Origin: Acidobacteriota bacterium
GTDB taxonomy: Bacteria > Acidobacteriota > Vicinamibacteria > Marinacidobacterales > Marinacidobacteraceae
DNA: 64,000 nt
Assembly (NCBI GenBank): GCA_022826195.1
Contig: JAJDVI010000001.1
Coordinates: 1-64,000 of the forward strand
Direction: 5' to 3'
In this document: positions 46,797 through 56,882 of the stretch, in pieces
How the letters are laid out: each line of letters starts with the position of its first letter
How positions within the stretch are numbered: position 1 is the first letter of the stretch
Notes under the pieces: model-generated
What the model was told of the DNA's origin: nothing
The model's input: only the letters and a program-made list of their open reading frames with translations
Database searches by the model: none
Position numbers and translations under genes: made by a program

Positions 46797-52669
<5,873 letters not shown>

Positions 52670-52702
52670 GGGCGGAGCGCCGGAAAACCCACGCCAGCGG
52701 CC

Positions 52703-53821
52703 TCAGGTCCCTGCGGGGACCCTCAGGTCAGCGCTGTCCGGTTTCCGGGCGTGCACGAGGAAACAGGGCGTGAAGATCCCGGACTCGCCGGCCTCGACGA
52801 GCGCATCGGCAGCGGCGTTGAGGATACGGGCCGCGTCGCCGGCGCCGGACGGGACGACGCCGAGCCGCTCGAGGATGCCGGTTGCCGTGGCGGTGAACCA
52901 ACGGCCGGCGGGAATCCGCGCCAGCGACGCGAGCGAAACGTCGCGGCCCTGCAGCGACCGGTACCAGGGAGAGTCCGAATCGCTCTCGAGGGCCTGGTCC
53001 CGGCTCGAGAGAACCTCAAAGCCCGCCGCCGCCACCGCGGCGACGAACTCGGACGTCATCGGAAGGTTCGGTACCGCGTTCCCGAACTCGACCCGGTCGC
53101 GGATGTCGCGATGGACGGGGTCCTTCCCGTCGAAGACCGTCGTGAGGCACCACTCGGTCAGCGCGATCCGGCCTCCCGGTTTCACCAGACGCCAGAGCTC
53201 CCTGAGACACAGGCTCGTGTCCGGCGCGTGGCATATCGCCTCGAACGAGTACGCGGCGTCGAAGGAGCCATCGGCGAGAGGCACGTCGAGGTAGTCCGCC
53301 AGCAGGAAACTGCACGTCTCCTGAAGCCCGGCGCGACGCGCCGCCCTCCGGCCTCGCTCGATCTGGTACGCGTTGAGGTTCAGCCCCGTGATGCTGGCTC
53401 CGGTGGTCTTCGCCAGGTGGATCAGCGGACCGCCGACGCCGCATCCGAGATCGGCGACCCTGGCGCCCGGCGCCAGCTCCAGGAGTTCCCCCACCCCCGA
53501 CTCCTGACGGCGCTGCGCGGCGTGGAGGCCTTCGCCGGTCCGTCGTGGCGCGAAGTGGAAGGACTGCCCCCAGGCGTACTCGTAGAACCAGGTGACGACA
53601 TCGTAGAAACGACTCACCATCTGTGGTTGACCGCGCACGGCGCGATCAGCGTCCCGCGCCGCCGCGAGGTCCTGGAGTTCGAGGAAGTCGTCGAGCGCCT
53701 CCCTCAGACTGCCGCCGCTGTTCGCCTCGACGAAACGGCGATTCCGCGGTTCCCCGGCCCGGTAGTCGGTGCGTCCCGGAGGTTCGACTTCGGGAGCTCT
53801 CCTGAATCCCACCCGTGGCAT
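52703..53821 (-). CDS. Sterol C-24 methyltransferase (SMT/ERG6) homologue
   Basis: This SAM-dependent methyltransferase of the sterol 24-C-methyltransferase family would add a methyl group to the sterol side chain at C-24. The 372-residue length matches the family. Region I, FYEYAWGQSFHFAPR (residues 79-93, compare YEYGWG of yeast Erg6), the SAM motif DLGCGVGGP (124-132), and region III, YSFEAICHAP (191-200, compare YAIEATCHAP), are all present. RDIRDRVEFGNAVPNL matches the segment after. The C-terminal domain ends in GIFTPCFLVHARKP, as in SMTs (FTPMxLxVARKP). One change is Gly to Ala in region I. No other sterol-pathway gene is in the window. It starts at ATG 53819-53821, divergent from another methyltransferase gene. 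The family is certain; the actual substrate is not. Confidence 0.93.
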   Translation of the reverse strand: MPRVGFRRAPEVEPPGRTDYRAGEPRNRRFVEANSGGSLREALDDFLELQDLAAARDADRAVRGQPQMVSRFYDVVTWFYEYAWGQSFHFAPRRTGEGLHAAQRRQESGVGELLELAPGARVADLGCGVGGPLIHLAKTTGASITGLNLNAYQIERGRRAARRAGLQETCSFLLADYLDVPLADGSFDAAYSFEAICHAPDTSLCLRELWRLVKPGGRIALTEWCLTTVFDGKDPVHRDIRDRVEFGNAVPNLPMTSEFVAAVAAAGFEVLSSRDQALESDSDSPWYRSLQGRDVSLASLARIPAGRWFTATATGILERLGVVPSGAGDAARILNAAADALVEAGESGIFTPCFLVHARKPDSADLRVPAGT

Positions 53822-53918
53822 GGTGCAATGCTAAGTGACGCATCCATGCCGCGAGCGATTCACGGCAGCCTCCCCGGTGATGCCTCGCCAGCGTCTCCGC
53901 GTCGGTATATTCGGCCAC

Positions 53919-54605
53919 ATGGGTCGCCATTCCGTCGCGCGGCATCTCCGGGTGGAGGTGGACGCTTACGACGCGGCCATCCGGCGGTTCATCCCCGGCT
54001 ACGAGGCGATGCTCGGCGTCGCGGCTCGCGAGATCGCGAACGTCGCACCACGACACGTCCTCGACCTCGGGGGCGGCACCGGCGCCCTCGCGGAAGCCAT
54101 CCTGCTCGCGGCGCCGGGGGCGGCGGTCGAACTCATCGACCTCGACCCCGAGATGCTCGCGGTGGCGCGGGAACGCCTCGGCGGGTACGGAGGCCGGGCG
54201 CGCTTCCGCGAGGCCTCCTTCGACGATCCCCTCCCGGAGGCCGACGCGGTGGCCGCTTCGCTGGCCCTCCACCACGTCCCCACGATGGAGGAGAAGCGGC
54301 GGCTCTTCGCCCGGATCCACGACTGCCTCCGCCCCGGCGGCGTCTTCGTGAACGCCGACGCCACGATGCCGGCGGAACCGAACGCCCGGGAACCGGTGTG
54401 GCGCGCCTGGACCGCCCATCTCGTGTCCTGCGGTATTTCGGAAGAGCGCGCCCGGCGCCATTTCGCCGAATGGCAGGAAGAGGACACCTACTTTCCGAAG
54501 GAGGTCGAAGCCGCGGCGATGCGCGCCGCCGGATTCGAGGTGGCGGCTGTCTGGAGTGACGGCCCGATGGTGGTCGCGGTGGGGAAGCGTCCGGTTCCCG
54601 GCTAA
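53919..54605 (+). CDS. Class I SAM-dependent methyltransferase
   Basis: This 228-residue protein has a typical motif I (VLDLGGGTGALAE), motif II (IDLDPEML), LALHHVP and a PGG loop (LRPGGVFVNAD). ATG 53919 leaves 97 bases to the divergent SMT gene; GTG 53835 or ATG 53880 would extend the protein into residues unlike the family. TATATT at 53906-53911, seven bases before the ATG, could be a -10 box of a leaderless or short-leader transcript. Its substrate is unknown. It converges on the DUF819 operon with a 3-bp overlap of the stop codons. Confidence 0.8.
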   Translation: MGRHSVARHLRVEVDAYDAAIRRFIPGYEAMLGVAAREIANVAPRHVLDLGGGTGALAEAILLAAPGAAVELIDLDPEMLAVARERLGGYGGRARFREASFDDPLPEADAVAASLALHHVPTMEEKRRLFARIHDCLRPGGVFVNADATMPAEPNAREPVWRAWTAHLVSCGISEERARRHFAEWQEEDTYFPKEVEAAAMRAAGFEVAAVWSDGPMVVAVGKRPVPG

Positions 54606-55735
54606 CCCCCGAGCAGCGAGCGCGCCAGGACCCCCATCCCGAACCCGAAGTAGTTCCCCACCGCGTAGCCGGCGAGCGCCACCGCGATGCCCGGGAGCAT
54701 CTGGACCGCGTAGCCGCGGGCGGAGGCGATCGCCACCGCCGAGGCGGCCCCGCCGATGTTCGCCTGGGACGCCACCGAGAGGGTCCCGGCGTCGATCCGG
54801 AGCAGCCGTCCCACTCCGAAGATCACCAGTCCGTGGACGGCGACGATGAGGGCTGCGAACCAGAAAAGCACCGCCCCGGCCGCGAACATCTCGGAGATGA
54901 GCGACCGCGCCCCGTTCGCGGCCAGGAACAGGTAGAGCAGCGAGTTGCCGAGCACCGGCGCTCCCCGGAGCTTCCGCACCGGGCCGAGGTGGCCGAGGAT
55001 CAGGGTGATGGTCGTCAGCCAGAGGACCGAGGGGACGACCGGCCACGCCGCCGCGATCAGGCGCGACGCCACCATGGTCCCGAGCGTGATCGCCGCCAGC
55101 CCGAAGAAGTCCATCATCCGGAGGCTCTCGCCGCTCTCGTTGAGCCGCTGCTCGAGGGTCAGGGGCCCCTCGCGCGGACGGGGCGGATCGAGGTCCCTCC
55201 CTCCCCGCAGCAACGCGGGGATCGCGATGCAGGCGGCAAGCCAGATGCTGGTCACGATCACGTCGGCGGCGAGCGCTCCCGACATGAGGTTCGGGTCGGT
55301 CTCGAAGGCCGCGGCGAGCGCGTAGAAGTTGGCGCTGCCCCCGATATAGGTCCCGGTGAACTGGCCGGTGAGCTTCCACGCCTCCGGACCCAGCGCGTCG
55401 GCGAGCAGGACCGTCGCGAGGAACGTCCCGAGCATGGTGCCGAGCGCTCCGAGCCCGAAGGCGGTGAGCATCGCCCTCCCGGCCTTCCGGACCGCCCGCA
55501 GGTCCACGTTCAGGAGCACCAGCACGATCGCGGCGTTGATCCAGATGTTCGAGATCTGCTCGTAGCTCTCCGCCTCGCCCACCAGGAGCCCGGTGTTGGA
55601 GAGGACCATCCCGAAGACGAGGCAGAGAAGCCCCGCGCTCAGCGACCGGAAGAAGCGGTAGTTCCGCTCCAGCCAGACGGCGAGGAACACCGACGCGGCG
55701 AGCGCCAGGAAGATCCCGAAGGGGTCCTGGATCAA
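54602..55735 (-). CDS. DUF819 family integral membrane protein (downstream copy)
   Basis: This 377-residue multi-spanning inner-membrane protein begins with TTG 55733-55735 (IQDPFGIFLALAASVFLAVWL). It is a paralogue of the next gene upstream: both share GTYIGGSANFYALA or GTYIGGGANFYALA, ESLRMMDFFGLAAITLG, LRGAPVLGNSLLYLFLA and SQANIGGAASAVAIA. DUF819 proteins have no firm function; the glycine-rich motifs and pseudo-repeats suggest a transporter. It is fourth and last in a minus-strand operon. Confidence 0.87.
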   Translation of the reverse strand: MIQDPFGIFLALAASVFLAVWLERNYRFFRSLSAGLLCLVFGMVLSNTGLLVGEAESYEQISNIWINAAIVLVLLNVDLRAVRKAGRAMLTAFGLGALGTMLGTFLATVLLADALGPEAWKLTGQFTGTYIGGSANFYALAAAFETDPNLMSGALAADVIVTSIWLAACIAIPALLRGGRDLDPPRPREGPLTLEQRLNESGESLRMMDFFGLAAITLGTMVASRLIAAAWPVVPSVLWLTTITLILGHLGPVRKLRGAPVLGNSLLYLFLAANGARSLISEMFAAGAVLFWFAALIVAVHGLVIFGVGRLLRIDAGTLSVASQANIGGAASAVAIASARGYAVQMLPGIAVALAGYAVGNYFGFGMGVLARSLLGG

Positions 55736-55748
55736 GAGGAGCCCTTTC

Positions 55749-56882
55749 TCAGCCCCCGAGCAGCGTTCGCGCCATGGTCCCCATCCCGAACCCGAGGTAG
55801 TTCCCGAAGGCGTAGCCGCCGAGCGCCACCGCGATCCCCGGCAGCAGCTTGTCCCCGTAGCCGCGCGCGGTGGCGATCGCCACCGCCGAGGCGGCCCCGC
55901 CGATGTTGGCCTGCGACGCCACCACCAGCGTCCCGGCATCGAACCGGAGCAGCCGGCCGATGCCGAAGATCACGAGCCCGTGGGTCCCTACCGTGATCAG
56001 GGCGTAGAAGAAGAGCGACGGCCCGTAGGCCAGCATCTCCGAGACCAGCGACTGGGCGCCGTTCCCCGCCAGGAACAGGTAGAGCAGCGAGTTGCCGAGC
56101 ACCGGGGCGCCCCGGAGCTTCCGGACCGGCGGCGTGTGGCCGAGGACGAGCGCGATGGTGGTCAGCCAGAGCACCGCCGGGATCACGGGTACCGCCGCCG
56201 CCAGCAGCCGGGCCGCCCCCATCGCCCCCAGCGTGATCGCCGCGAGTCCGAAGAAGTCCATCATCCTCAGGCTCTCGCCGCTCTCCTTGAGCCGTTGCTC
56301 GAGCGTCATGGGGGCGTCGCCCTTCCGGACCGGGTCGAGCCCCTTCCCGCCGTAGAGCAGCGCCGGGATGATGAGGCAGGTGGCGAGCCAGCAGGCCGTC
56401 ACGATCACGTCGGCGGCGACCGCCCCGGACATGATGTTCGGATCGGTCCCGAAGGCGCCCGCGAGGGCGTAGAAGTTCGCCCCGCCGCCGATGTAGGTCC
56501 CCGTGAACTGCCCGGTGAGTTTCCACGTCTCGGGGCCGATGGCGCCGGCGAGCAGGAAGGTGGCGATCGCCGTCCCGAGCATGGTGCCGGCGGCGCCGAT
56601 CCCGAACGCCCCGAGCATGGGCTTCCCGGCGGCCAGCAGGGTGCGGAGGTCCACGTTCAGGAGCACCAGCACGATCGCCGCGTTCACCCAGATGTTCCCG
56701 AGCTGGTAGTAGGCCTCCGCGTCTCCCGGCAGGAGCCCGGAGTTCGACAGGATCATCCCGAACACGAGGCACATGAGGCCCGCGCTCATGGCCCGGAAGA
56801 AGCGGTAGCGCCCCTCCAGCCAGACCGCCAGGAAGACCGCCCCGGCGAGGGCCAGGAAGACGCCGAACGGGTCCTGGATCAA
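55749..56882 (-). CDS. DUF819 family integral membrane protein (upstream copy)
   Basis: This 377-residue membrane protein is nearly collinear with the following copy and clearly a tandem duplicate. It starts with TTG 56880-56882 and has about ten membrane segments with the same conserved motifs (GTYIGGGANFYALAGAFG, ASQANIGGAASAVAIATARG). The gap to the second copy is 13 bases. Its partner could form a heteromer. The function is unknown. Confidence 0.87.
   Translation of the reverse strand: MIQDPFGVFLALAGAVFLAVWLEGRYRFFRAMSAGLMCLVFGMILSNSGLLPGDAEAYYQLGNIWVNAAIVLVLLNVDLRTLLAAGKPMLGAFGIGAAGTMLGTAIATFLLAGAIGPETWKLTGQFTGTYIGGGANFYALAGAFGTDPNIMSGAVAADVIVTACWLATCLIIPALLYGGKGLDPVRKGDAPMTLEQRLKESGESLRMMDFFGLAAITLGAMGAARLLAAAVPVIPAVLWLTTIALVLGHTPPVRKLRGAPVLGNSLLYLFLAGNGAQSLVSEMLAYGPSLFFYALITVGTHGLVIFGIGRLLRFDAGTLVVASQANIGGAASAVAIATARGYGDKLLPGIAVALGGYAFGNYLGFGMGTMARTLLGG

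Follow-up and report, generated by a model that had tools for sequence, protein, structure and literature searches.

The SMT-Family Gene and Its Conserved Motifs

The window, i.e., the whole stretch of 64,000 nucleotides analyzed here, carries a gene of the sterol C-24 methyltransferase (SMT) family at positions 52703..53821, on the (-) strand. This open reading frame starts with ATG, is intact, and encodes a protein of 372 aa, assigned to clade A of the family from the reading frame, the Pfam match, the tree, and the identity to plant SMT1. In the Pfam search, a class I methyltransferase domain precedes the Sterol_MT_C domain PF08498 (52739..52909, (-)), whose C-terminal end is FTPCFLVHARKP and which reaches 67.5 bits where the cut-off is 21.7 (E 1.1e-18). 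The same family search gave no match in the 14 control genomes and was positive in 15 of 396 Acidobacteriota genomes. Because of this score and these counts, the match of the window protein lies far above chance. When compared with A. thaliana SMT1, the protein also aligned over 295 aa with 42% identity (E 2e-92 for this one comparison). ERG6, SMT1, and SMT2, which serve here as the eukaryotic references, are not database copies; each of them matches as an SMT in Pfam.

Alignment to ERG6 and ten bacterial SMTs located region I, the aromatic sterol side-chain region, as YEYAWGQSFHF (residues 80-90; 53552..53584, (-)); region II, the predicted SAM-binding loop, as ADLGCGVGGP (residues 123-132; 53426..53455, (-)), with DLGCGVGGP at residues 124-132; and region III as YSFEAICHAP (residues 191-200; 53222..53251, (-)). 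Compared with yeast ERG6, regions I to IV follow one another in order, region IV being TEWCLT, and the C-terminal FTP...ARKP block is also present. Downstream of YSFEAICHAP come RDIRDRVEFGN and then FTPCFLVHARKP; an earlier note on this DNA had listed these segments in the same order, and we located all of them as it stated. Regions I and III are near the SMT consensus. Region I carries Ala at a position where most SMTs carry Gly, a change for which the earlier note had suggested an effect on specificity. The aromatic residues of this region are known to steer the side-chain cation that arises after transfer of the SAM methyl group (PMC5711494). The Gly-to-Ala change also occurs in the SMT of locus L005 and in one SMT of genome G064, so that we dropped it as a unique specificity switch, and nothing ties it to specificity.

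We also modeled the window protein with AlphaFold2, using an alignment of ten bacterial relatives (mean pLDDT 75, pTM 0.78). The solved folds nearest to this model are AtmM, TleD, RebM, and MitM; the fold search returned RebM-type structures only and no solved SMT, and a PDB search with the protein sequence returned no full-length eukaryotic-type SMT. Judged by domain content, motifs, and phylogeny, the window protein is confirmed as a genuine bacterial member of the sterol side-chain methyltransferase family.

Position of the Window Protein among SMT Clades

The tree comprises 37 SMT rows, with the cores of RebM, MitM, AtmM, and TleD as the outgroup; gamma-tocopherol methyltransferase and the assayed SMTs of PMC10070321 are not among its rows. 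All 37 SMT rows, including that of the window, fall on one side of a branch with 100/99 support that separates them from the outgroup cores. This placement, with the PF08498 score and the SMT1 identity, upholds the claim of the earlier note that a bacterial SMT homologue lies here.

Clade A groups the window protein with rows from Thermoanaerobaculia (71% and 70% identity), Acidimicrobiia (69%), and Gammaproteobacteria (51-53%, or 58% for a single SMT of G064, a Pseudohongiella genome). In the tree, the window and Acidimicrobiia rows form a pair (support 99/94). Clade B is formed by Acidobacteriota and Gammaproteobacteria, with single rows from one Dehalococcoidia and one Acidimicrobiia genome, and its region I reads M-V/x-x-GWGESLHF, as against YEYGWGxSFHF. 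Clade C members adjoin the oxidosqualene cyclase (OSC) gene in Dehalococcoidia and Acidimicrobiia, and this clade also holds one SMT of the congener G003. A fourth, small bacterial group lies near ERG6 and SMT1. In the uncultured Pseudohongiella genome (L045, L058, and L088), four SMT-family matches occur; they belong to clade A, clade B, and the ERG6-like group, and a pair of them are neighbors in L088.

The p-values of the tree tests are indicative only (three eukaryotic rows, fragmentary outgroups, and groups named post hoc); with this reserve, the tests rejected the monophyly of all bacterial SMTs (p 0.013) and a clade made of the window row and the acidobacterial clade-A rows alone (p 0.021). 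An AU test did not reject a topology in which the window row branches apart from the remaining SMTs (p 0.087), but clade A lies next to the root, which makes this value uninformative.

A Single-Gene Insertion and Its Neighbors

The host genome (G000; 3.85 Mb, 107 contigs, 93% complete) belongs to an acidobacterium outside the class Thermoanaerobaculia. The clade-A locus of G346, a genome listed in the host phylum, agrees in contig number, coordinates, and score with that of G060, the genome of a named Thermoanaerobaculia MAG. With this MAG in the same phylum, Gemmatimonadota (Palauibacter) was dropped as the host lineage. No 16S was recovered from G000, and RpoB identities were ambiguous. DNA and protein synteny with five congeners (G002, G003, G004, G006, and G007) delimits an insertion of ~1.2 kb, of approximate extent 52684..53910. 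Indeed, homology to the congeners ends at 52669-52683 and restarts at 53911-53925, and synteny extends on both sides of the site at roughly 85-93% DNA identity. In 5/5 congeners, the GH2 gene and the neighboring methyltransferase gene are adjacent with no SMT between them, and it is for this reason that we read the window gene as a single-gene insertion. The spacers between these two genes measure 207-447 bp in the congeners and are of unrelated sequence. No SMT remnants, which would have pointed to loss instead of gain, were found in these five spacers. Among the sampled congeners, the clade-A SMT occurs in G000 only; G003 carries its clade-C SMT at a different locus. In the simplest history that these comparisons suggest, the SMT would have been gained as one gene by horizontal transfer; five independent clean losses would be possible but less simple. 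Palindromic, short, REP-like G+C-rich repeats lie in the congener spacers that the SMT replaces (L198, L200, L201, L202, and L203).

Codon and GC bias was dropped as a mark of foreign origin, the difference in GC3 being too slight (0.84 in the SMT gene against about 0.90 in most window genes). The earlier note had also pointed to a divergent neighbor of the SMT. Such a gene exists at 53835-54605 on the (+) strand, with a likelier ATG start at 53919, and encodes a generic class I methyltransferase in which Pfam finds no SMT domain. Its role as a functional partner is ruled out, since it adjoins GH2 without any SMT in the five congeners. At 54602-56882, two tandem genes encode DUF819 membrane proteins that are 76% identical, and both are conserved in the genus.

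In relatives, a gene for a KshA-type Rieske oxygenase directly follows the clade-A SMT (L003, 10001-12271; L004, L084, L006, and L008), and this pairing is found in Acidobacteriota, Actinomycetota, and Gammaproteobacteria. No such gene lies beside the window SMT. A recently gained insert with no working role here, for instance one that is unexpressed or being lost, would fit this missing partner, the presence of the gene in a single sampled species of the genus, and the lack of a promoter-like match. We consider it very unlikely. Indeed, the promoter scan covered the sigma-70 consensus only, and the frame is intact, the motif residues are conserved, and identity to relatives of another class reaches 71%.

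A Second SMT Locus and Other Sterol-Type Genes

G000 carries a second SMT, of clade B, on contig C87 (L075:8974-10029). It belongs to a cluster (L075:8974-19961) that encodes this SMT, an RND permease, a GPP34-P450 fusion, a flavin amine oxidase, a KshA-type Rieske oxygenase, HlyD, and TolC. The cluster is also found at L077, L078, L079, L080, L082, L083, L087, L089, and L205. Its core recurs, rearranged, in the congeners, in G008, in G049 (another family), in G167 (another class), and in the Gammaproteobacteria G063 and G064; in G007 it is interrupted at a contig end. The fusion of GPP34 (Golgi phosphoprotein 3) to a P450 (L075:13338-15398) is conserved between phyla, and G004 (L078) has two copies of it. 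Its P450 has the heme-cysteine motif, and its best solved match is cholesterol 24-hydroxylase, followed by CYP51; a literature search on this fusion returned nothing relevant. For both Rieske types, i.e., that of the cluster and that paired with clade-A SMTs, the best solved match is KshA (3-ketosteroid 9alpha-hydroxylase), and G000 has a single KshA_C protein, that of the clade-B locus. The AcrB-type protein of this locus scores as an efflux permease. A predicted sterol transporter of Methylococcus, BstA, is of the RND family (PMC10942540). In G063, a homologue of the cluster amine oxidase (77%) adjoins genes for squalene synthase, OSC, squalene epoxidase (SQMO), a P450, and a sterol reductase.

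Elsewhere in the host genome, on contig C34 (L227:9237-10430), lies a gene for a sterol reductase of the ERG4/ERG24 family (397 aa, 2.3e-34), a family found in none of the 14 control genomes. A eukaryotic-type carbonic anhydrase gene adjoins it. From the company that the SMT gene keeps, the host is likely associated with sponges.

No Detected Route for de novo Sterol Synthesis

We searched for OSC with TIGR01787 and for SQMO with PF08491. Neither gave a match in G000, so that the absence of cyclase and epoxidase, which the earlier note had reported for the window, extends to the rest of this 93% complete genome. It extends also to the five congeners (91-93% complete), which have no SQMO and only weak, partial cyclase matches below the cut-off. 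The same two models found both genes in G060, G063, G064, G065, G066, and G067; in G060, the Thermoanaerobaculia genome from which L003 comes, they lie side by side. If a de novo sterol producer is recognized by the presence of SQMO and OSC in its genome, G000, at 93% completeness, falls outside this group. On contig C17 (L226:2037-4129), two squalene-synthase-like genes stand in tandem, in a genome with no detected cyclase or epoxidase.

De novo synthesis could still take place if the cyclase and epoxidase genes were in the 7% that the assembly lacks, or if unrecognized enzymes took their place. The incomplete assembly, the squalene-synthase-like genes, and the adjacent OSC and SQMO of G060, in the same phylum, speak for this scenario. 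We nevertheless hold it to be highly improbable, since the congeners also have no SQMO and no cyclase match above the cut-off, and it is unlikely that the same genes were missed by chance in six assemblies. Since SQMO and OSC were found neither across the whole genome nor in the five congeners, we hold import of the substrate to be most likely.

Proposed Function

The window protein is probably a SAM-dependent sterol C-24 methyltransferase acting on imported delta-24 sterols, its gene having been gained horizontally as one gene. SAM would be bound through the DLGCGVGGP loop, and the sterol side chain would be held by regions I, III, and IV. The enzyme may then methylate a delta-24 sterol at its C-24 double bond, e.g., converting desmosterol to 24-methyl or 24-methylene sterols, and possibly perform a second methylation on 24-methylene products. 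A eukaryotic host or neighbors that make sterols would supply the substrate, because the bacterium has no recognizable sterol-making route of its own. Sterol processing is probably tied to the second SMT locus, with its RND efflux, P450, Rieske, and flavin oxidase components, and to the sterol reductase encoded elsewhere in the genome. Family membership, the conserved motifs, the pattern of a single-gene insertion, the lack of detected SQMO and OSC, and the other sterol-type genes are observed, and from them we infer the substrate, the reaction, the import, and this link between loci.

Several observations favor this reading, i.e., the PF08498 match, the ordered regions, the SMT1 identity, the tree, the lack of detected OSC and SQMO, the second-SMT cluster, and the ERG4/ERG24 reductase, to which are added the pairs of clade-A SMT and KshA-type Rieske genes in three phyla and the empty site in five congeners. 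It is also in line with the methylation of desmosterol in vitro by assayed bacterial SMTs (PMC10070321). On the other hand, 2 of 10 sponge-symbiont SMTs and 2 of 14 other bacterial SMTs were inactive in that same study, and we found no enzyme assay of any clade-A SMT in the literature. The window SMT has no adjacent Rieske partner, unlike its relatives, and at 93% completeness gene absence is not absolute. Moreover, with two squalene-synthase-like genes, the cell might make a non-sterol substrate of its own.

The protein could thus be an SMT-family enzyme that methylates a self-made non-sterol triterpene such as squalene, as do the triterpene methyltransferases of Botryococcus braunii, SMT-like enzymes with variant sterol-binding domains (PMC3533583). 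Such an activity would suit a genome in which two squalene-synthase-like genes stand in tandem and neither cyclase nor epoxidase was found. Yet regions I and III are near the SMT consensus, the genome holds other sterol-type genes, including the ERG4/ERG24 reductase, and clade-A relatives adjoin KshA-type oxygenases; we regard a triterpene substrate as unlikely.

Comparison with Known Systems and Implications

As the earlier note had proposed, the window SMT is a further case of bacterial SMTs already published, and possibly one from a new lineage: in our limited search of open-licence papers, we found no report of an SMT from Acidobacteriota outside Thermoanaerobaculia. Functional bacterial SMTs have been described, three of which make 24-isopropyl side chains (Brown et al. 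2023, PMC10070321). These proteins, from uncultured bacteria including sponge symbionts, belong like ours to the SMT family, and one of them, an assayed SMT of a Chlamydiae MAG, likewise comes from a genome with no other sterol biosynthesis genes. In contrast, the main text of that paper names no Acidobacteriota, and the window gene differs from these SMTs in that it was inserted alone, into a genome that has a second, clustered SMT. SMT genes are enriched in Ircinia sponge symbionts (Kelly et al. 2022, PMC9531527), where SMT1/ERG6 genes occur in MAGs across many bacterial phyla and horizontal transfer of steroid clusters was inferred. However, those clusters are centered on ERG24, CYP51, and ERG7, whereas the window SMT is a solitary gene, and no cyclase was detected in its genome.

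With the eukaryotic SMTs (yeast ERG6, plant SMT1 and SMT2), the window protein shares the domain architecture, regions I-IV, the C-terminal domain, and, for SMT1, the 42% identity; it differs by its separate clade, the Ala in region I, and a bacterial genome without a detected sterol pathway. It resembles TMT-1 to TMT-3 of Botryococcus in being SMT-like, and G000 has squalene-synthase-like genes, but their sterol-binding domains are described as variant (PMC3533583), and the regions of the window protein are near the SMT consensus. RebM, AtmM, and MitM share its class I SAM fold and core sequence and are its best solved matches; they fall on the opposite side of the tree, and the RebM core, when tested, gave no Sterol_MT_C match.

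The more novel part of these findings is the putative remodeling set without OSC. Neither the cyclase-free clade-B set nor the gain of an SMT as a single gene was found in our limited search of open-licence papers. We tentatively propose, as a possibility that we would put somewhat below even, that Acidobacteriota unable to make sterols carry a conserved, horizontally spread set of genes that would remodel sterols obtained from elsewhere. Its core would consist of the clade-B SMT, RND/HlyD/TolC, the GPP34-P450 fusion, the flavin oxidase, and the KshA-type Rieske oxygenase, with clade-A or clade-C SMTs added per species.

C28-C30 steranes serve as biomarkers of eukaryotes and sponges, and such molecular fossils are used to follow the early history of eukaryotes and animals. 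This use was already complicated by the bacterial SMTs in the literature, to which the window SMT adds a lineage. In addition, it is a case of single-gene insertion seen in one sampled species of its genus, and, more broadly, SMTs are found here in genomes with no detected cyclase. The copy number of SMT genes differs among close relatives and is thus a poor guide to sterol output. Surveys of bacterial sterols that use oxidosqualene cyclase as a marker would miss such SMTs. If the proposal holds true, remodeling Acidobacteriota could supply side-chain-alkylated sterols that are invisible to oxidosqualene cyclase searches.
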